64,000 nucleotides of DNA. Source: Teichococcus aestuarii. GTDB taxonomy: Bacteria > Pseudomonadota > Alphaproteobacteria > Acetobacterales > Acetobacteraceae. The position numbers were made by a program, and so were the translations under genes. Below the pieces are notes generated by a model. The model had not been told where the DNA came from. It was given only the letters and a program-made list of their open reading frames with translations, and ran no database searches. Where the stretch lies: NCBI RefSeq assembly GCF_003116135.1, contig NZ_PDOA01000003.1, forward strand, positions 372,001-436,000. Direction: 5' to 3'. Positions 39,281 to 48,488 of this stretch are shown here, in pieces. Within the stretch, counting starts at the first letter, position 1; each line of letters starts with the position of its first letter.

Positions 39281-39712
39281 GTGCTGCACATCATCAAGCT
39301 CTGCGTCGGCCCGCGCGACGTGGCCTCCCTCCGCGCCGCGCAGGAGCGGCGCGCCCGCCTCGACCCGCCGCTCCGCCACCTCACCCGCATGCAGCCCAAG
39401 CGGGCGGAGGAGGTGCTGGCGGGCGGCTCGCTCTACTGGGTGGTGGCCGGCTTCGCCTGCGTCCGCCAGCGCATCCTCGACATCCGCACCGAGGCGGCGG
39501 AGGACGGCACGGCGTACGCCGCCCTGGTGCTGGACCCGGCGCTGGTGGCGGTGGCAGCACGGCCGGTGAAGGCCTTCCAGGGCTGGCGCTACCTGGCGCC
39601 CGAGGCCGCGCCGCCCGACATCGCCGCCCGCCCCGACGGCGCGGCGGATGACGGCATCGCCGCCCTGCCCGAGGCGCTGCGGCGCGAGTTGCAGCTGCTC
39701 TGCCTGCTCTGA
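39281..39712 (+). CDS. DUF1489 family protein
   Basis: A 143-residue alphaproteobacterial protein of unknown function. It opens (GTG start) LHIIKLCVGPRDVASLRAAQ, has the PLRHLTRMQPKRAEEVLAGG segment and SLYWVVAGF, and ends with a short leucine-rich helix, all typical of DUF1489. The start is GTG, preceded by an AGGCGG site, because no ATG fits the family N-terminus. It is divergent from the TAXI receptor gene, with about 165 bases of promoter space between. It is probably an RNA- or DNA-associated protein, but that is only a guess. Confidence 0.85.
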   Translation: MLHIIKLCVGPRDVASLRAAQERRARLDPPLRHLTRMQPKRAEEVLAGGSLYWVVAGFACVRQRILDIRTEAAEDGTAYAALVLDPALVAVAARPVKAFQGWRYLAPEAAPPDIAARPDGAADDGIAALPEALRRELQLLCLL

Positions 39713-40177: not shown

Positions 40178-40212
40178 GGGCCGGCCGGCTCGTCCGGCCG
40201 GCCCATTTTTTC
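40178..40212 (+). terminator. Intrinsic terminator with T6 tract
   Basis: Arms GGGCCGGCCGG and CCGGCCGGCCC form an 11-bp stem around CTCGT, followed by ATTTTTTC. It ends the small basic gene and overlaps the last codons of the convergent hydrogenase-like operon. Confidence 0.85.
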
Positions 40213-40861
40213 AGGTGGGGTCCTGCTTCCAGGCAGGGTCCTGCGCCGGGTCCCTGGGCTGCGGCTGCGCCCAGTCCTCCAGGGAAGGCTCCACGGGCCG
40301 TGGCGGCAGCACCGGCGGCGGCGCCGAGACCTCCGCCTCCAGCAGCGCCAGCAGCCCCTCCAGCAGCAGGGTCGGGCTGGGCGGGCAGCCGGGGATCAGC
40401 AGGTCCACCGGCACGACCTGACCGACGCCGCCCTCCTCCACCGCCGGGCTGCCCTGGAACACGCCGCCATCCACCGCGCAGTCGCCCACCGCCACCACCC
40501 ATTTCGGGTCGGGCATGGCGGCATGGGTGCGCAGCAGGGCCTCGTTCATGTTGCGCGCGGCCGGCCCGGTGACGAGCAGCACATCGGCGTGGCGCGGCGA
40601 GGCGACGAAGCGCAGCCCGAACCGCTCCAGGTCGTAGGCCACGCCGGAGAGGGCGTTCACCTCCAGCTCGCAGCCATTGCAGGAGCCGGCATCGACATGG
40701 CGGATCGCCAGGCTGCGGCCGAGGCGGCCGCGCGCCATGGCGTCCAGCCGCTCCACCAGGGCGGCGACGATCTCGGGCGTGCTCTCCGGCGGCGGGTCGG
40801 TCAGCGGGCGGCGGAACACGGTGCGCGCCAGATCGGCGAGCAGCGGGCGGGGCCAGGGCAT
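40211..40861 (-). CDS. NuoB/HyfI-like Fe-S small subunit of the hydrogenase-related complex
   Basis: A 216-residue protein homologous to NuoB and to HycG/HyfI of membrane-bound hydrogenases. All four cluster ligands are present: Cys61 and Cys64 in SCNGCELEV, Cys128 in VGDCAVDGG and Cys159 in PGCPPSP. It should therefore bind the terminal 4Fe-4S cluster next to the large subunit. The C-terminal 40 residues are proline-rich and variable. It is the last gene of the operon, 26 bases after the large subunit. The complex probably has no hydrogenase activity because its partner lacks Ni-Fe ligands. Confidence 0.85.
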   Translation of the reverse strand: MPWPRPLLADLARTVFRRPLTDPPPESTPEIVAALVERLDAMARGRLGRSLAIRHVDAGSCNGCELEVNALSGVAYDLERFGLRFVASPRHADVLLVTGPAARNMNEALLRTHAAMPDPKWVVAVGDCAVDGGVFQGSPAVEEGGVGQVVPVDLLIPGCPPSPTLLLEGLLALLEAEVSAPPPVLPPRPVEPSLEDWAQPQPRDPAQDPAWKQDPT

Positions 40862-40887
40862 CTGTCAGTCTCCCTGCCGGGGCGGGG

Positions 40888-42393
40888 TCACAGGTCCACC
40901 CCGCTGTAGGAGGCGTTGAAGGATTTGTTGCAGAGCGGGAAGTCGGCCACGATGTCGCCCTCCACCGCCGCCTCCAGCAGCGGCCAGTGCAGCCAGGAGG
41001 GATCGCGCGGGAAGATGGCGCGGATCAGCCCCGCCTCGTCCAGCGCCATCCAGCACAGCACCTCGCCGCGGAAGCCCTCCACCACGCCGACCCCCTCCCC
41101 CGCCCGGGCGGGAATGGGCAGCAGCGTCTCGCCCGCCTCCAGCCGCGCCAGCAGGGCGGCCACCATGGCCAGGCTCTCGGCCAGCTCGTCGAGGCGGATC
41201 TGCAGCCGCGCCTCCACATCGCCCGCCTGGCGCAGCGGCACGGTGAAGCCGAGGCGGTCATAGGGCGCGTAGGGCATGTCCCGCCGTGCGTCGAAATCCC
41301 GCCCCGAGGCGCGGCCGACATAGCCGCCGGCGGCGAAGCCCGCCGCCAGGCCAGGGCGCAGCGTGCCGGTGCCGGCCAGCCGGTCCTGCAGGCTGGCATG
41401 GCCTTCGATCGCGCGGCGCAGCGCCGGCAGCCCGGCCACCACCGCCGCCAGCGCGGCCAGAATCGCCTCCGGCCCGCTCGGCGCGATGTCGATGGAGACG
41501 CCGCCCGGCACCACGCGGTCCATCATCAGCCGGTGGCCGAAGGCGGCGTCCGCCGCGCGCAGCACACGCTCGCGCAGCAGGCCGCAGCGGGCATGCGGCC
41601 AGGCGAAGGCGGCGTCGTTGCAGAGAAAGCCGATATCGTTGAGGTGGTTGGCGATGCGCTCCAGCTCCGCCATCACGCCGCGCAGCAGGGTGGCGCGTGG
41701 CGGCGGCGTGACGCCGGTGGCGGCCTCGGCGGCGGCGGCGAAGGCCCAGGCATGCGCCACGGTGGAATCGCCCGAGAGCCGCGCCGCCAGCCGCGCCGCC
41801 AGCCGGGGCGACTTGCCCCGCATCAGCCCCAGCACGCCCTTGTGCGCGTAGCCCAGACGCGTCTCCAGCCGGACGATGGTCTCGCCCTGCACATGGAAGC
41901 GGAAATGCCCCGGCTCGATCACGCCCGCATGCACGGGCCCGACCGGGATCTGGTGCACCCCCTCCCCCTCGGCGGGCAGGAAGGCGGGCTGCGGCAGCTC
42001 GCCCACCGGCGGGCTGGGCGACTTGCCGAGCGGGGCGTGGAGCGGCCACACGCCGTGGTCCAGCCAGGGGCGGGAATCCACCGCCCCCTCGGCGCGCAGC
42101 CCCCAGAGATCGGCCACCATGCGCTCGAAGCGGCTGGCGGCGGGGCGGGCGGGGGAGAGGGCGGCATAGCGGCCGCCCGTGGCATCGGCCGTGGCCAGCA
42201 GCGGCGGGCCGCCCCCGGCATGGCGGAAGGCGGCGTGCACCCGCTCGGCCTCGCCCCACAGGCCCAGGAATTCCAGCTCCGGCTCCTGCCGCAGCGCGGC
42301 GGGCAGCGCCGCCCAGCCGCCCTCGTCCAGCCGCCAGCGCAAGGGCGAACGGCGGGTGCCGGACTGGATCAGGCGGGTGGCGGGGCCATTCAT
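40888..42393 (-). CDS. NuoC/D-HyfG-like large subunit without Ni-Fe ligands
   Basis: A 501-residue fusion: an N-terminal NuoC-like part (to about residue 130) and a NuoD/[NiFe]-hydrogenase-like large subunit. The segment IPVGPVHAGVIEPGHFRFHV and the LARLEAGE region are family-typical. In true group 4 hydrogenases the first motif reads RxCGICGFAH; here the aligned sequence is RLSGDSTVAH (residues 205-214), with serines at both cysteine positions. The second CxxC is also missing: the C-terminus ends PLCNKSFNASYSGVDL with a lone Cys488. Nickel-iron cannot be bound in the usual way. The start MNGPATRLIQSG is set by homology. Confidence 0.85.
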   Translation of the reverse strand: MNGPATRLIQSGTRRSPLRWRLDEGGWAALPAALRQEPELEFLGLWGEAERVHAAFRHAGGGPPLLATADATGGRYAALSPARPAASRFERMVADLWGLRAEGAVDSRPWLDHGVWPLHAPLGKSPSPPVGELPQPAFLPAEGEGVHQIPVGPVHAGVIEPGHFRFHVQGETIVRLETRLGYAHKGVLGLMRGKSPRLAARLAARLSGDSTVAHAWAFAAAAEAATGVTPPPRATLLRGVMAELERIANHLNDIGFLCNDAAFAWPHARCGLLRERVLRAADAAFGHRLMMDRVVPGGVSIDIAPSGPEAILAALAAVVAGLPALRRAIEGHASLQDRLAGTGTLRPGLAAGFAAGGYVGRASGRDFDARRDMPYAPYDRLGFTVPLRQAGDVEARLQIRLDELAESLAMVAALLARLEAGETLLPIPARAGEGVGVVEGFRGEVLCWMALDEAGLIRAIFPRDPSWLHWPLLEAAVEGDIVADFPLCNKSFNASYSGVDL

Positions 42394-42412
42394 GGCGCGA
42401 ACCTCGCGGGGG

Positions 42413-43852
42413 TCATCCGGCGATCCTCGCGGCCTCGGCCAGCAGGGCGGCGAGCGGCGCGGGCAGCGCCATCCCCAGCGCCAGCGCCAGCAGCAGGTGG
42501 AGCTGCGCCGGGGCCAGCACCGCCCATTCGCCAAGCGCGGGCGGCGGGGCGCCGGGCGCGTCGGCCGTGGCCGGGCCGAAGCAGAGATCCTGCAGGGTGC
42601 GCAGCAGCGCCAGCGCCGCCACCAGCAGGCCGAGGCCGAGCGGCAGGGCCAGCCAGGGCAGCCGCGCCACGCTCTGCTGCGCCATCAGGAACTCGCTGGC
42701 GAAGAGGGAGAAGGGCGGCAGCCCGGCGGTGGCGAGGATGGCGAGCGCCAGCGTCCAGCCCAGCACCGGATGGGAGAGGTTCAGCCCGCCGATGGCGGCG
42801 AGGCGCTGCCCGCCCTTCAGCACGATGGCGCGGCCAAGGGCGAAGAACAGGGCGCTCTTGACCAGCGAATGGCCGAGCATGTGCAGCAGCCCCGCCATCG
42901 CCGCCGGCCCGCCCAGCCCGAAGGCGAAGGCGGCGAGGCCCATATGCTCGATGCTGCTCCAGGCGAAGAGGCGCCGCGCATCCCGCCGCCGCCACAGCGC
43001 GAAGGCGGCCAGCAGCAGCGAGGCGAGGCCCATCGCCACCATCAGCGCGCCGGGCGGCAGCGGCCCGGGGTTCAGCGCCACGATGGCCTTGGCGCGCAGG
43101 ATGGCGTGCAACGCCGCGTTCAGCAGCAGGCCGGAGAGCACGGCGGAGATCGCCATCGGCCCCTCGGCATGGGCATCGGGCAGCCAGGAATGCAGCGGCA
43201 CCAGCCCCGCCTTGGTGCCGTAGCCCACCAGCAGGAAGACGAAGGCGAGCGTCATCAGCGCCGGATCGGCCTCCCGCGCCACGCGGCCGAGGGCGGCAAT
43301 GGAGAGGGAGGCGGCACCACCCCCGGTGAGCGGCTGCGCCGCCAGCGCCAGCACGATGGTGCCGAACAGCGCCAGCCCGATGCCGACGCCGCACAGCATC
43401 AGGAACTTCCAGGCCGCCTCGATGGCGGCGGGGGTGCGGTGCAGCGCCACCATCAGCACGCTGGCCAGCGTGGCCAGCTCGATCGCCACCCACATCAGGC
43501 CGAGATTGTCGGCCAGCAGCGCCAGGTGGTTGGCGCCGAGGAAAAGCTGGAAGGCGGCGTGGTAGGCCCGCCCGGCGCGCGGGCCGAAGCCCTCCGCCGG
43601 CAGGGTGGCGGCCGAGAACACCGCCGTGGTGAGGCCGACCAGCCCCGAGAGCAGCAGCAGCGGCAGGTTCAGCGCGTCGAGATGCAGCAGCCCCTCGACC
43701 TCGCGCGGCAGGGCGAGCAGCGCCAGCGCCAGCAGGAAGCCGCCGGCCGAGAAGCCGATATTGGCCAGCGCCGCCACGGGCTGGCGGGGGATCGCGGCCA
43801 GCACCACCGCGCCCAGGAAGGGCAGCAGCACCAGGAGGGCGGGGTGCATCAT
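42413..43852 (-). CDS. Proton-pumping antiporter-like subunit (HyfF-like)
   Basis: A 479-residue polytopic protein of the NuoL/M/N and Mrp-antiporter superfamily. Landmarks are the conserved glutamate helix (WVAIELATLASVLMVA), the LVGYGTKAGLVPLHSWLPDAHAEGP channel motif with its key lysine, and the second lysine/histidine segment (FAWSSIEHMGLAAFAF and LGHSLVKSALFF). These are the proton-path residues of such subunits. Two adjacent ATGs overlap the previous stop, giving coupled translation. It should contribute one ion channel to the complex. Confidence 0.87.
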   Translation of the reverse strand: MMHPALLVLLPFLGAVVLAAIPRQPVAALANIGFSAGGFLLALALLALPREVEGLLHLDALNLPLLLLSGLVGLTTAVFSAATLPAEGFGPRAGRAYHAAFQLFLGANHLALLADNLGLMWVAIELATLASVLMVALHRTPAAIEAAWKFLMLCGVGIGLALFGTIVLALAAQPLTGGGAASLSIAALGRVAREADPALMTLAFVFLLVGYGTKAGLVPLHSWLPDAHAEGPMAISAVLSGLLLNAALHAILRAKAIVALNPGPLPPGALMVAMGLASLLLAAFALWRRRDARRLFAWSSIEHMGLAAFAFGLGGPAAMAGLLHMLGHSLVKSALFFALGRAIVLKGGQRLAAIGGLNLSHPVLGWTLALAILATAGLPPFSLFASEFLMAQQSVARLPWLALPLGLGLLVAALALLRTLQDLCFGPATADAPGAPPPALGEWAVLAPAQLHLLLALALGMALPAPLAALLAEAARIAG

Positions 43853-44529
43853 GCGCCCTCCCCCTCCCGCTCGCCGCGATGCGCGTGCAGGGCGGAGACG
43901 TCGAGGCTGGCGAGGCTCTCGCGCAGGCGGAAGACGAAGAAGCCGGCAACGGCGGCCAGCATCAGCACCAGCGCGGCGGTGGACAGCTCCAGCACCAGCG
44001 GCATGCCCCGCACGCCGGAGGCGGCCAGCACCAGCCCGTTCTCCAGGCTGAGCAGCCCCACCAGCTGGCTGATGGCGTTGTGCCGCGTGATCATCATCAG
44101 CATGCCGAGCAGCACCACGGAAAGGGCCAGCGCCAGATCCTCCCGCGCCTGAAGGCCGGCGCCGGCGGTGGCCGGCAGCACCACCATCAGCGCCAGCGCC
44201 ACCAGTGCGACGCCCGCCACCATGCTGGCGCCGATGCCGAGCGCCGGCTCCACCGCGCGCTGCACCGCGAGATGGCGGACAAGGCGGCGCAGCGCCAGCG
44301 GCAGCAGCACCGCCTGCGCCACCGCCGCCAGCAGCGCGGTGAGGTAGAGGCCCGGCGCCCCCTGCGCCCAGCCCTGCCACGCCACGGCCAGCGCCAGCAG
44401 CGCCCCCTGCGCGGCGAAGGCGGCGATGACGCCGGAAAGGCGCCGCTGGTAGAGCAGCACGAAGGAGAACAGCAGCACGCCGCCGCCCAGCAGGTGCGCC
44501 ATGTCGTAGGAAAGCTGGCCGAAGCCCAT
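43849..44529 (-). CDS. HyfE-like membrane subunit
   Basis: A 226-residue polytopic membrane protein homologous to HyfE of hydrogenase-4, which combines NuoK-like helices. A 4-base overlap joins it to the next gene. The MMITRHNAISQLVGLLSLENGL segment is strongly family-like, with the glutamate in LENG being the proton-path residue seen in NuoK. About seven hydrophobic helices are visible. The C-terminal 20 residues are charged (HAHRGEREGEGA) and cytoplasmic. Confidence 0.84.
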   Translation of the reverse strand: MGFGQLSYDMAHLLGGGVLLFSFVLLYQRRLSGVIAAFAAQGALLALAVAWQGWAQGAPGLYLTALLAAVAQAVLLPLALRRLVRHLAVQRAVEPALGIGASMVAGVALVALALMVVLPATAGAGLQAREDLALALSVVLLGMLMMITRHNAISQLVGLLSLENGLVLAASGVRGMPLVLELSTAALVLMLAAVAGFFVFRLRESLASLDVSALHAHRGEREGEGA

Positions 44530-44541
44530 GCCGCGCGCCCT

Positions 44542-45498
44542 TCAGGCCAGGCCGGTGGAGAGGAACAGGAGCACCACCCCGAGCAGCGCCAGCAGCAGCG
44601 CCGCGCCGAGGAACTCCGGCACGCGGAAGACGCGCATCTTGGCGATCGCCGTCTCGAACACCGCCAGCGCCACCGCCAGCAGGCCGAGCTTCAGCGCCCA
44701 GGCGGCGAGGCCCAGCAGCCAGCCGAGCGGCCCGGCCTCGGCCGGCGCCGTGCCGAAGGGCAGGAACACCGCCGCCAGCAGCGCCAGCCACAGGGCGAGG
44801 CGCAGCGCCCCCTGCATCTCCCACAGGGCGAGGTGGCGGCCGGAGGCCTCCAGCAGCATCGCCTCGTGCACCATGGTGAGTTCGAGGTGGGTGGCGGGGT
44901 TGTCCACCGGCAGGCGGCCATTCTCGGCCAGAGCCACGGCGAGCAGCGCCAGCAGCGCCAGGCCCAGCGAGACACGCAGCCCCACCGCCCCCTCCTGCAG
45001 CACGGCGCCGATGCCATCGAGGCTGGTGGTGCCGGCCAGCATGGCGAGCACCATCACCGCCAGCACGAAGGCCGGCTCGGCGAGACTGGCGAAACTCATC
45101 TCGCGCGCGGCGCCGAGGCCGCCGAAGGCGGTGCCGGCATCCATCCCCGCCAGGGCCAGGGCGAAGCGCGAGACCGCCAGCAGGCCGCCGATCAGGATCA
45201 GGTCGCCCATCGGCGCCAGCGCCATGCCGCGGGCGAAGCCGGGCACCATCAGCGCCGCCGCCAGCGTCGCCGCCAGCGCCACATAGGGCGCGGCGGCGGT
45301 GACGGGGGAGGCGCCCTCGGCCAGCACCGGCTGCTTGCGCAGCAGCTTCCGCAGGTCCCGCCAGGGCTGGAAGGGGTGCGCGCCGCGCCGGCCGAGCAGC
45401 CGCGCCTTGAGCCAGCGCACCACCCCCACCAGCAGCGGCGCCAGGGCCAGCAGCAGCGCCGCGTGCAGCAATTGCGTGACGATGGCGGGGAACAGCAT
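44542..45498 (-). CDS. HyfC/NuoH-like membrane subunit
   Basis: A 318-residue NuoH-type subunit that forms the chamber connecting the peripheral arm with the membrane. It has about eight helices. The RRGAHPFQPWRDLRKLLRKQ segment and GGLGAAREMSFASLAEPAFV, with their conserved arginine and glutamate, match HycD/HyfC. Translation begins MLFPAIVTQLL and its start overlaps the preceding gene's stop by one base. It lies between the two antiporter-like genes of the operon. Confidence 0.87.
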   Translation of the reverse strand: MLFPAIVTQLLHAALLLALAPLLVGVVRWLKARLLGRRGAHPFQPWRDLRKLLRKQPVLAEGASPVTAAAPYVALAATLAAALMVPGFARGMALAPMGDLILIGGLLAVSRFALALAGMDAGTAFGGLGAAREMSFASLAEPAFVLAVMVLAMLAGTTSLDGIGAVLQEGAVGLRVSLGLALLALLAVALAENGRLPVDNPATHLELTMVHEAMLLEASGRHLALWEMQGALRLALWLALLAAVFLPFGTAPAEAGPLGWLLGLAAWALKLGLLAVALAVFETAIAKMRVFRVPEFLGAALLLALLGVVLLFLSTGLA

Positions 45499-47540
45499 CA
45501 GCGCGCCCCCCCGCCCGGCAGCAGCGCCAGCAGCAGGAGCAGCAGCACCAGCGTGCCGAAGCCCAGCATCAGCAATCGCCGCAGGCTGAGGTCCCGCAGC
45601 CGCTCCGCCGCCACCGAGAGCCGCTCGCGCAGGGCCACCAGGGGGGCGAGCAGGCGTCCCGGCAGCGGGTCGTGGAAGCCGCTCTCCAGCCGGGCGGGGG
45701 CGGTGTCGCCGGGGGGCGGCCTGTGCACCGCCTCATGCGCCGCCAGCAGGCGGCCGCCCAGCATCCGCCGCAGCGGCTGGGCGAAGCCATCGGCGCCGGG
45801 CTGGGTGGCGGGGTCGCCGAAGGGTAGGTGCGGCGGCGGCGCCTGGAAGCCGCCATCCCAGGCCGGGCCGCGCCGCGCGGGCTGCGGCGAGAGGCGCCGG
45901 CAGAGCCACACCAGCCCCGCCCCCAGCAGGCCGAGCAGCACCGCCAGCGGCAGCGGCGCGTAGTCCGCACCCTGCACCGAGGGGCTGACCGAGAGCGGCG
46001 CCGCCTCCGGCAGGCCGGGATGGCCGCTGAGCGCGCCGATGGCCCCCGCCCCCAGCATCAGCAGCGGCCCGGGCAGCAGGCCGATCAGCACCGCCAGCCC
46101 GGCGAGGCCGGCCAGGGCGGCGCGCACCAGCGGCGGCGCATCCTGCGCGCCGAGGGTGCGGGGGCCGCGCGGGCGGCCGAGGAAGGCCAGCCCCCAGAAG
46201 CGCAGCATGGCCGCCGCGCCCAGCGCCGCCGCCAGCGCGGCGAGCGCGGTGCAGGCGGCCACCAGCACCTGGAAGCCCAGCTCCCCCACCCGCCAGGCGC
46301 CGAGCAGCGCCTGCAGCAGCAGCCACTCCCCCGCGAAGCCGGAGAGCGGCGGCAGCGCCGCGGCGGCAGCGGCGCCGACCAGCGCGCAGAGCGCCACCGC
46401 CGGCATGGCGTGGACCAGGGCGCCCAGGCTGTCGAGCCGGCGGGAGCCGGCGGCGTGCTGCACCTCGGCCGCCACCAGGAAGAGGAGGGTCTTGAACAGG
46501 CCATGCGCCAGGGCGTGCAGCAGCGCCGCCGCCGCCGCCAGCGCCGCCAGCGGACCGAGATCGGCCGCGCGCAGCGTGGCGGCGAGGCCGAGCCCCAGCG
46601 TGACCAGCCCGACATGCTCGATGGTGGAGCAGGCCAGCAGGACCTTGGTGTCCCGCTCCTGCCCGGCGCGCAGCGCGCCCAGCACGGCGGAGGCGGCGCC
46701 CATCACCATCAGCGGCACGCCCCACCAGAGCGGTTGGCCGAGCCCGCCGAGATCGAGCAGCAGCCGCGCCATGACATAGAGCGCCACCTTGGTCATCACG
46801 CCCGAGAGCAGCGCCGAGACCGGCCCCGGCGCCACCGGGTGGGCCAGCGGCAGCCAGCCATGCAGCGGCACCAGCCCCGCCTTGGCCCCCGCCCCGGCCA
46901 GCACCAGCGCCAGCACCGCCACCGCCGCCCAGCCCTGCGGCGGCGCGGCGCGCAGCCCGGCGAAGGAGAGGTCGCCCGCCAGCCCGCCCATCAGCCCCAC
47001 CGCCGGCACCAGGCAGGCGGCGGCGAACAGCGCGAAGCCCAGGTATTGCCGCGCCGCCGCGCGCGCCTCCGCATCGGCCGGGCTGGAGGCCACCAGCGCC
47101 CAGGAGGCGAGCGACATCAGCTCGAAGCCCAGCAGCAGGGTGAAGGCGTCGGCCGCCAGCAGGGTCAGCGCCATGCCGGCCAGGAACAGCGGCCAGGGCA
47201 GCAGCCGGCGCGGCGGCACCGCCACCTCGCGCTCCAGCGCGAACAGCCCGGCGGCCAGCCCGGCCAGGCCCAGCAGCAGCAGGAACCAGGCCGAGAGCGC
47301 GTCCAGCCCCAGGCTCAGCGGCGCCCAGGGCGGGCCGAAGGGCAGCAGCACCGGCGCCATGCCCCCCGTGGCCAGCGCCAGGATGGCGAGCAGCGCGAAG
47401 CCCGCCGAGACGGCGGCGCAGCCCCCATGCACCAGCCGGGCGATGGCAATGCCGAAGGGCGCCGGCCAGCGCCCGGCGAAGGCCCCGGCGGCAGCCAGCA
47501 GCAGCAGGAGGCAGAGGAGCAGTACGGGCGCCGCGGTCAC
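45498..47540 (-). CDS. HyfB-like antiporter subunit of the hydrogenase-related complex
   Basis: A 680-residue polytopic protein, the long member of the NuoL/M/N family that begins hyf operons. Family motifs are LLLGFELMSLASWALV with the helix glutamate, GAGAKAGLVPLHGWLPLAHPVAPGPVSAL, and the later AHGLFKTLLFLVAAEVQHAAGSRR segment with lysine and histidine. The C-terminal extra domain (about residues 560-680), with a PHLPFGDPATQPGADGF stretch, is as in HyfB. It is the first gene of the six-gene operon. A modest promoter region lies in the 117 bases after the aldo/keto reductase gene. Confidence 0.86.
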   Translation of the reverse strand: MTAAPVLLLCLLLLLAAAGAFAGRWPAPFGIAIARLVHGGCAAVSAGFALLAILALATGGMAPVLLPFGPPWAPLSLGLDALSAWFLLLLGLAGLAAGLFALEREVAVPPRRLLPWPLFLAGMALTLLAADAFTLLLGFELMSLASWALVASSPADAEARAAARQYLGFALFAAACLVPAVGLMGGLAGDLSFAGLRAAPPQGWAAVAVLALVLAGAGAKAGLVPLHGWLPLAHPVAPGPVSALLSGVMTKVALYVMARLLLDLGGLGQPLWWGVPLMVMGAASAVLGALRAGQERDTKVLLACSTIEHVGLVTLGLGLAATLRAADLGPLAALAAAAALLHALAHGLFKTLLFLVAAEVQHAAGSRRLDSLGALVHAMPAVALCALVGAAAAAALPPLSGFAGEWLLLQALLGAWRVGELGFQVLVAACTALAALAAALGAAAMLRFWGLAFLGRPRGPRTLGAQDAPPLVRAALAGLAGLAVLIGLLPGPLLMLGAGAIGALSGHPGLPEAAPLSVSPSVQGADYAPLPLAVLLGLLGAGLVWLCRRLSPQPARRGPAWDGGFQAPPPHLPFGDPATQPGADGFAQPLRRMLGGRLLAAHEAVHRPPPGDTAPARLESGFHDPLPGRLLAPLVALRERLSVAAERLRDLSLRRLLMLGFGTLVLLLLLLALLPGGGAR

Positions 47541-47657: not shown

Positions 47658-48488
47658 TCAGAGCATCTCCAGCGGCTGCTTGCGGCGGGGCGGCGGGAAG
47701 GCGCCGTCCAGCTCGGACAGGTCCTCCGGCGTCAGCACCACCTTCCAGACATCGGCGTTCTCGCGCAGATGCGCCTCCGAGGCGGCCTTGGGGATGCTGA
47801 TGACGCCCGGCTGGCGCAGCGTCCAGGCCAGTGCCACCTGGGCCGGGCTGATGCCCTGGCGCCGTGCCACCTTCTTCAGCGCCGGGTGGCCCAGCAGGTC
47901 GCCGCCCTGCCCCACGGGCGAATAGGCCATCACCGGCATCTTCAGCCGTGCCGCGTAGGGCAGCAGGTCGAACTCCACGCCGCGTGCCTCCAGATTGTAG
48001 AGCACCTGGTCCGTGGCGCATTCGGAGAGGGCGGGGCCCAGCTCCTCCAGGTCCGGGACGTCGAGGTTGGAGACGCCCCAGGCCCCGATCTTGCCCTGCT
48101 CGACCAGCCGGCGCATCGCCTCCACCGTCTCGGCCAGCGGCACGCCGCCGCGCCAGTGCAGCAGGTAGAGATCGATCCTGTCCGTGCCGAGCCGCTTCAG
48201 ACTGCGCTCGCAGGCCTGCGGCAGCCGGGCGCGGGAGGCGTTCTGCGGGTAGGCCTTGCTGACCAGGAACACCTCCTGCCGCCGGCCGGCGATGGCCTCG
48301 GCCACCACCTCCTCGGCGCCGCCCTCGGCATACATCTCGGCGGTGTCGACCAGCGTCAGGCCGAGGTCGAGGCCGAGGCGCAGCACCCGCGCCTCCGCCG
48401 CGCGGTCGGCGCCGCGCTCGCCCAGGCGCCAGGTGCCCTGGCCGAGCACGGGAATGCTGCGGCCATCCGGCAGGGTGATCGTATTCAT
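47658..48488 (-). CDS. Aldo/keto reductase
   Basis: A 276-residue NADPH-dependent TIM-barrel reductase. The catalytic tetrad is Asp48 (LVDTAEMY), Tyr53, Lys78 (LVSKAY) and His111 (YLLHWRG). The C-terminal cofactor segment GVISIPKAASEAHLREN is intact. It belongs to the broad bacterial group that reduces aldehydes and 2,5-diketo-gluconate-like ketones; the substrate is unknown. It is divergent from the IalB-like gene and lies just upstream of the hydrogenase-related operon on the same strand, though a separate promoter for that operon is likely. Confidence 0.92.
   Translation of the reverse strand: MNTITLPDGRSIPVLGQGTWRLGERGADRAAEARVLRLGLDLGLTLVDTAEMYAEGGAEEVVAEAIAGRRQEVFLVSKAYPQNASRARLPQACERSLKRLGTDRIDLYLLHWRGGVPLAETVEAMRRLVEQGKIGAWGVSNLDVPDLEELGPALSECATDQVLYNLEARGVEFDLLPYAARLKMPVMAYSPVGQGGDLLGHPALKKVARRQGISPAQVALAWTLRQPGVISIPKAASEAHLRENADVWKVVLTPEDLSELDGAFPPPRRKQPLEML

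Follow-up and report, generated by a model that had tools for sequence, protein, structure and literature searches.

A Hyq-type complex without a Ni-Fe site in Teichococcus aestuarii and the repeated loss of its pump charges in close relatives

The operon and its remodelled large subunit

Here we describe an operon of six minus-strand genes in the order hyfB-C-E-F-G-I, which occupies positions 40211-47540 of a 64,000-nucleotide stretch of Teichococcus aestuarii DNA (GCF_003116135.1, NZ_PDOA01000003.1, 372,001-436,000; the whole stretch is called the window, and coordinates count from its first letter). The host genome measures 5.2 Mb, with a completeness of 99.95%. Consecutive genes in the open reading frame list are separated by gaps or overlaps of at most 26 bases, and a codon-usage gene caller chose the same six genes, again adjacent. 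A preliminary description of this DNA had proposed a membrane arm and a peripheral module in this order, and both the open frames and the homology agree. Pfam and NCBIfam models returned a NuoB-like product, a NuoD-like product with a weak additional NiFe match, two Proton_antipo_M products, a NuoH-like product and a HyfE-like product, the last through a HyfE-type NCBIfam match with no Pfam match. The best named matches are Roseomonas-like bacteria, which we take to be Acetobacteraceae.

The membrane arm consists of the hyfB-like subunit of NuoL/MrpA antiporter-like type (680 aa, 45498..47540), the hyfC-like subunit of NuoH type (318 aa, 44542..45498), the small hyfE-like membrane subunit (226 aa, 43849..44529) and the hyfF-like subunit of NuoM/N antiporter-like type (479 aa, 42413..43852). 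All 21 key charges are kept: E140, K220, K251, K299, E308, K350 and E405 in hyfB; E133, E141, E192, E206, E212 and E217 in hyfC, together with its DNPATHLELTMVHE loop; E163 and E181 in hyfE; and E125, E145, K214, E302, K332 and E387 in hyfF.

The large subunit (hyfG/hyqG-like, fused NuoC-NuoD type, 501 aa, 40888..42393) has no Ni-Fe cysteines. In an alignment with E. coli HycE (PDB 7z0s_E, 152 bits), RVCGICGFAH corresponds to RLSGDSTVAH and DPCYSCTD to NASYSGVD. The first replacement, of the RxCGICGFAH motif, covers residues 205-214 counted from the ATG at 42393 (41752..41781, minus strand); the C-terminal CxxC is replaced by CNKSFNASYSGVDL (residues 488-501, 40891..40932, minus strand), which contains N489, K490 and Y496. 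The four Ni-Fe cysteine positions are S207, S210, S495 and G498. The serines in the first motif and the missing second CxxC had been noticed earlier, and the alignment bears this out; the first CxxC is gone as well. Ser at 207 is found in 78, Asp at 209 in 79 and Ser at 495 in 77 of 79 related large subunits, and because these residues are near-universal, the ligand replacement characterises the whole family and is no peculiarity of the window copy. A larger set, made up of 128 pump-intact and 58 pump-less large subunits (186 in all; the two states are defined below), contains no sequence with cysteine at more than one of the four positions. A single cysteine occurs in two pump-less copies of this set, at loci L151 and L211, and in L080 outside it.

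The small subunit (hyfI/hyqI-like, 216 aa, 40211..40861, minus strand) would carry a single [4Fe-4S] site. Its C61, C64, C128 and C159, reported as kept in the preliminary description, align with HyfI/HycG and are all present in 74/74 sequences.

In a tree of 28 large subunits, with four Ni-Fe rows, three NuoD rows and long branches flagged by the program, the window protein lies inside a single clade of energy-converting hydrogenase-related (Ehr) and Hyq proteins (support 100/100), with NuoD outside and HycE/HyfG beside it (96/92). It groups at 100/100 with Hyq proteins from bacteria that publications list as hyq-bearing (L114, L077), and it falls neither within NuoD nor among active hydrogenases. 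This position, the missing Ni-Fe ligands, the kept cluster ligands, the full membrane arm and the lack of a HypD match in the genome support the Ehr assignment made at the outset. As judged from its sequence, the window complex belongs to the Ehr complexes and, more precisely, is the module called 'Hyq' in Azorhizobium caulinodans, a known and poorly understood kind, and it cannot be an ordinary nickel-iron hydrogenase.

Pump charges and pocket are lost in relatives

The nearest relative of the window, L139, belongs to the same genus and has a large subunit 87% identical, and it has lost most of the conserved buried charges of the membrane arm. The replacements are E140G, K220M, K251P, K299G, E308G, K350T and E405G in hyfB; E125G, E145G, K214Q, E302G, K332A and E387L in hyfF; E133A and E192G in hyfC; and E181G in hyfE. 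Residues flanking the lost charges are largely unchanged. When polarised against L140/L141, all these losses fall on the L139 branch, except K332A, which this comparison leaves unresolved. The same charges are lost, with different replacements, in L146, L148-L153, L155 and L167, and the HyfC loop is altered or deleted in several of them. Of 31 family-invariant membrane Glu and Lys residues, the window keeps 29, L139 and L146 keep 12, L148 and L152 keep 9, L149 and L150 keep 8, and L151 keeps 6; L155 keeps 5/28. Invariant Arg and Asp residues are retained at 29/31 in L139 and 30/31 in L146, and at 15/29 to 25/31 in the other six loci. In each of these eight loci, which were picked because charges had been lost, the loss of Glu and Lys exceeded that of Arg and Asp (Fisher p 1e-6 to 0.012) as well as that of the remaining invariant residues (p 0.0006 to 0.022). 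In L148-L153 and L155, the other invariant residues drop along with Glu and Lys. The content of Lys plus Glu in hydrophobic segments declines two- to four-fold, not to zero. Canonical NuoL/M/N were compared in 12 genomes, of which ten have a pump-less Hyq, and 36/36 subunits retain residues equivalent to E125 and K214; because complex I in the same genomes keeps its charges, the loss is specific to the Hyq complex.

These losses recur widely. The large-subunit profile matched at E <= 1e-47 in 242/299 genomes of the window's family, and 100 further regions were fetched, chosen to cover genera and not at random. The 21 key charges were scored in 169 loci with four membrane genes called: 113 kept 19-21, five kept 13-14 and 51 kept 0-7, a low class that includes deep lineages whose genes were called by position only. 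Among 129 family and class loci, 61 were pump-intact, 58 pump-less and 10 not scorable; among 80 named loci, 67 were pump-intact, none pump-less and 13 not scorable. L152 and L167 are pump-less by residue inspection, yet are not among the 58. The membrane genes score well against family profiles in 23 of the 58 pump-less loci, and our main claim rests on these 23; in the others they were called by position and size, and their residue scores should not be read singly. Profile-profile comparison of six deep groups supported hyfB in four groups (L202, itself one of the 23, belongs to one of them), hyfC in five, and hyfF and hyfE in one each, and failed elsewhere.

A tree of 88 large subunits that includes the 23 requires seven state changes on the best tree and 6-7 in bootstraps, with at least five forced by well-supported branches. 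In L272-L274 the loss is only partial, with 5-7 charges kept (the hyfB call is missing in L273 and wrong in L274). When these three loci are set aside, the numbers become five, 4-5 and four. One genome, G522, carries two operon copies, the pump-intact L275 and the partly dismantled L274. We read the state changes as losses; such counts cannot separate loss from gain, but regain of the whole charge set is implausible. Left out of the 88-row tree were L219 and L220, which keep the pump with an altered pocket, as well as L145, L163, L242 and L252. Automatic calls were wrong for one subunit in L220, L236, L237 and L239.

The losses in the membrane arm are accompanied by losses in the large subunit, at a site that we call the pocket. 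It is defined by homology as S207, G208, D209, D260, N489, K490, N493 and Y496, conserved residues that replace or flank the Ni-Fe ligands. N489, K/R490 and Y496 occur together in 126/128 pump-intact large subunits vs 0/58 pump-less ones, and D260 in 126/128 vs 1/58, while R205 is kept in 58/58 pump-less copies. Since pocket and pump are lost together, these paired losses support a tie between ion translocation and the pocket that replaced the Ni-Fe site, and we infer that the pocket drives the pump.

The peripheral arm shows a different pattern. Among 54 pump-less small subunits, C61 is present in 50, C64 in 54, C128 in 52 and C159 in 51, and all four in 49. No small subunit was found in four pump-less loci, L159, L165, L230 and L231; the gene taken as such in L159 and L230 is another protein, which must also hold for L231, as it resembles L230. 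The retention of cluster ligands bears on the idea that the complex transports ions without any redox function and that its peripheral arm is vestigial. The membrane arm does resemble Mrp antiporter subunits, but evolution has mostly kept the cluster cysteines and peripheral residues and dropped the pump charges, the reverse of what a transporter would need, and we consider this explanation very improbable.

Pump-less copies have open frames and ratios of nonsynonymous to synonymous substitution rates (dN/dS) below 1. These were simple Nei-Gojobori estimates without codon-bias correction, and several dS values were saturated or nearly so. The pump-less neighbours L146-L167 gave 0.16, 0.04, 0.13 and 0.23 for hyfB, C, E and F. 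Other pump-less pairs gave 0.15-0.27 (L152-L153), 0.35-0.44 (L149-L150), 0.20-0.43 (L190-L191), 0.23-0.45 (L184-L185) and 0.12-0.51 (L197-L198), and the more distant L150-L151 and L149-L152 reached 0.58 and 0.71. In deep lineages with positional calls, values were 0.07-0.15 for L227-L228, 0.07-0.12 for L161-L214, up to 0.63 for L202-L203, 0.04-0.11 for L230-L231 (where the gene taken as small subunit was wrong) and 0.81 for one gene of L222-L223. Could the complex be an eroding relic without function? Pocket and pump are gone in sister lineages, cluster ligands are gone in some, several pump-less pairs show dN/dS of 0.3-0.7, and the L139 branch is rich in amino-acid changes (in hyfB 37 synonymous to 37 nonsynonymous, against 28 to 8 on the window branch). 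However, the window copy keeps all key residues, each compared gene of L146-L167, L152-L153, L227-L228 and L161-L214 lies at 0.04-0.27, and pump-intact pairs themselves span 0.13-0.63, so that pump-less copies are not clearly more relaxed. Operons also persist in genomes of about 2-2.7 Mb. A relic therefore seems unlikely to us.

Taken together, we see an even chance that Hyq was converted at least four times independently in the window's family, from an energy converter to a pump-less and pocket-less membrane complex under purifying selection, even at about 2 Mb; that most of these keep the [4Fe-4S] ligands and one genus (L197, L198) lacks three of four; and that the paired loss marks the remodelled pocket as the coupling site of Ehr/Hyq complexes.

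Hydrogen, redox partners and a proposed role

One published reading of Ehr/Hyq complexes, as aerobic hydrogenases that recycle the H2 made by nitrogenase, is at odds with their sequences. A 2009 paper on A. caulinodans Hyq described HyqG as carrying a Ni-Fe centre; the missing CxxC motifs of HyqG were already reported by Sprecher et al. 2012 (PMC3357923), and that paper itself doubted the Ni-Fe site. The hyq operon of A. caulinodans is under NifA control, its deletion lengthened diazotrophic doubling from 7.2 to 8.8 h with near-normal growth on ammonium, and 20% H2 did not remove the deficit (PMC2650096, PMC3357923, PMC2930871). When hyqRBCEFGI was deleted, diazotrophic cultures evolved more H2 and microaerobic H2 output fell; nodules of a hup hyq double mutant evolved H2 (PMC3357923, PMC2930871). 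These phenotypes favour a real hydrogenase with an unconventional H2 site, the 'endo-hydrogenase' proposed for that bacterium. Nevertheless, we regard this as quite unlikely: no CxxC pair occurs in the 186 large subunits, H2 did not cure the growth deficit, the 2012 paper has its own doubts, and HypD is not found in most Hyq genomes (see below). Three HyqG cysteines were termed completely conserved in 2012 (PMC3357923), but among the 128 pump-intact copies C258 is present in 108, C488 in 112 and C494 in 104, and the window has Ala at 494.

We surveyed NifD and HypD. The window's own genome gave 0 HypD matches and no NifD match. HypD was found in 3/58 genomes searched, the window's own among the 58 (2 above the cut-off), and NifD in 5/56; among 50 named genomes, NifD was found in 24 above the cut-off (29 at E <= 0.001) and HypD in 24, and HypD was found in 8/30 class genomes. 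The combined census takes in the 102 genomes that encode a Hyq large subunit and were tested for both proteins; of these, 65 showed neither protein, 25 both, 8 HypD only and 4 NifD only; HypD was not found in 69, the window's genome included, and NifD not in 73. It covers 50 of the 80 named loci, scores matches below the cut-off as absent (among them a partial NifD in G463 and a weak HypD in G033), and excludes G011, whose gene is split over contigs, and the diverged or other matches of G010, G017, G024, G029, G054, G059, G186, G191 and G367; a non-match weighs less in a draft than in a complete genome. As 65/102 carriers show neither protein, recycling of nitrogenase H2 is rejected as the general role of Hyq. 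A tie between the 'conserved' HyqG cysteines and nitrogen fixation was not seen either, these cysteines being mostly kept in nif-less genomes. What is new here is that Hyq occurs where neither NifD nor HypD is found, and that its pump has been dismantled repeatedly in close relatives; a literature search that covered few subscription journals returned nothing on pump-less complexes, on Hyq in the window's family or on later HyqG work.

The gene neighbourhood was searched for a redox partner by clustering 1297 predicted proteins from 81 loci (the window and the 80 named), rarer neighbours being left unannotated, and it gave no recurrent candidate. The recurring families were the six subunits and one XRE regulator family (30 loci); no further family occurred in more than 12/81 loci, and the one in 12 resembles ABC-transporter ATPases by eye. 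In 28/63 loci with a full hyfB (e.g. L065, L071, L072), the gene of a small XRE regulator immediately precedes hyfB in the same orientation; it was not seen in that position in the window. This regulator is probably HyqR, because many of its members start with MIT, as does the reading of the published primer at the hyqR start codon in the Hyq papers. The window operon is flanked upstream by an aldo/keto reductase gene (47658-48488) and downstream, on the opposite strand, by a DUF1489 gene (39281-39712). In L145 (G027:C1, 8459-10710), hyfG and hyfI with an intact pocket motif were found and hyfB, C, E and F were not, within an 18-kb stretch; by eye, the genes that flank the window operon stand upstream in place of the membrane genes. 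L160 and L161 (G029, G059), from 2.5-2.7 Mb genomes of the same family, are strongly diverged six-gene operons with membrane genes recognisable mainly by position. Both adjoin a gene that resembles phosphatidylserine synthase by eye, and L160 also has an aldo/keto reductase upstream, as does the window.

No NuoE/F/G/I module lies in the operon or among the eight annotated window genes outside it. Conceivably, the Hyq core could make use of NuoEFG and NuoI, the NADH-oxidising module of the canonical complex I, and thus work as an alternative NADH:acceptor pump. The genome does encode canonical NuoD and NuoL/M/N-like genes, and the Hyq module has no NuoI-like subunit of its own; even so, we hold this to be distinctly improbable. 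Further antiporter-like genes beyond complex I and the Hyq operon were observed in the same genome (G000 C52, C96).

We lean, by a small measure, toward the view that the intact Hyq/Ehr complex of this organism is no hydrogenase and works as an energy converter of six subunits akin to complex I, in which electrons of a carrier would pass via the HyfI cluster and chemistry in the pocket would be coupled to proton movement. As no NuoI, HyfH or HyfA gene belongs to the module, the partner would be a soluble one-electron carrier of the ferredoxin or flavodoxin type exchanging electrons with the HyfI cluster. The pocket chemistry, most likely on a quinone or a similar two-electron partner, would drive the movement of protons in HyfB, C, E and F or be driven by it, and the flow of electrons and protons could run either way. 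That the window complex pumps ions, as first suggested, has only indirect support. If the pump provided nitrogen fixers with low-potential electrons, this would account for a growth deficit that is cured by ammonium and not by H2. Copies without the pocket chemistry would lose the pump charges too, and would retain the peripheral fold and mostly the cluster ligands for another role that needs no proton movement, electron transfer or sensing being the simplest guesses.

Several observations weigh against this proposal. The deletion in A. caulinodans strongly alters H2 evolution, which a non-hydrogenase must explain indirectly (PMC3357923, PMC2930871). The sole pump-intact exceptions to the pocket pattern, L219/L220 of one genome, combine a retained pump (hyfC, E, F) with a changed pocket. 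Independent pairs in the tree are concordant for the pocket-pump link in 4-5/6 and never opposite, a sign-test p of 0.06-0.125. The positions of the complex I quinone His and Tyr of NuoD, which we take to be H38 and Y87 in T. thermophilus numbering, align to I159 and G208 of the window large subunit, and therefore any quinone site here would have to differ. Finally, cluster ligands are not always kept in pump-less copies: L149 and L150, from the window's genus, have Ser at C61, and L201 has Ser at C159. In L197/L198 (G601 and G546, two species of one genus; small subunit 137 bits), C61 and C128 are Gly and C159 is Ser, with all frames open. This suggests that even the cluster can become dispensable, and these two loci may encode a complex-I-like assembly left without any redox centre.

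If the paired loss of pocket and pump holds, Ehr/Hyq complexes would have their coupling site in the remodelled Ni-Fe pocket. Pairs of sister copies, the window and L139 among them, offer a ready comparison for finding this site and the substrate. They also form a natural test of long-range coupling in complex-I-like machines, as many proton-path residues disappear jointly from four subunits and the peripheral arm is left in place.

Relation to known systems

By its published description, the Hyq of A. caulinodans (hyqRBCEFGI) has the same six structural genes in the same order as the window, a HyqG without CxxC motifs and a HyqI with four cysteines. Unlike in A. caulinodans, the window has no NifD or HypD match in its genome and no XRE gene directly upstream, and one 'conserved' HyqG cysteine is Ala. 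The same layout is found in L114, which is pRL11 of R. johnstonii 3841, R. leguminosarum being named as hyq-bearing in the Hyq papers. Ehr complexes are described as group-4-like without Ni-Fe ligands (PMC6349859, PMC10284858; Ech-hydrogenase-related in PMC7894505), as is the window complex, which by these descriptions would resemble those of Geobacter, Nitrospira and Margulisbacteria.

E. coli hydrogenase-4 (Hyf) and formate hydrogenlyase (Hyc) have homologous subunits, and the relative order B-C-E-F-G-I is that of hyf. However, the window operon lacks the Ni-Fe cysteines and counterparts of hyfA, D, H and J, and, unlike for Hyc, no formate dehydrogenase was seen among the eight annotated window genes outside the operon. 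Respiratory complex I differs in having NuoE/F/G/I, another pocket and a separate clade for its large subunit, whereas its core (NuoB, CD, H, L, M) and its proton-path residues are homologous to those of the window complex.

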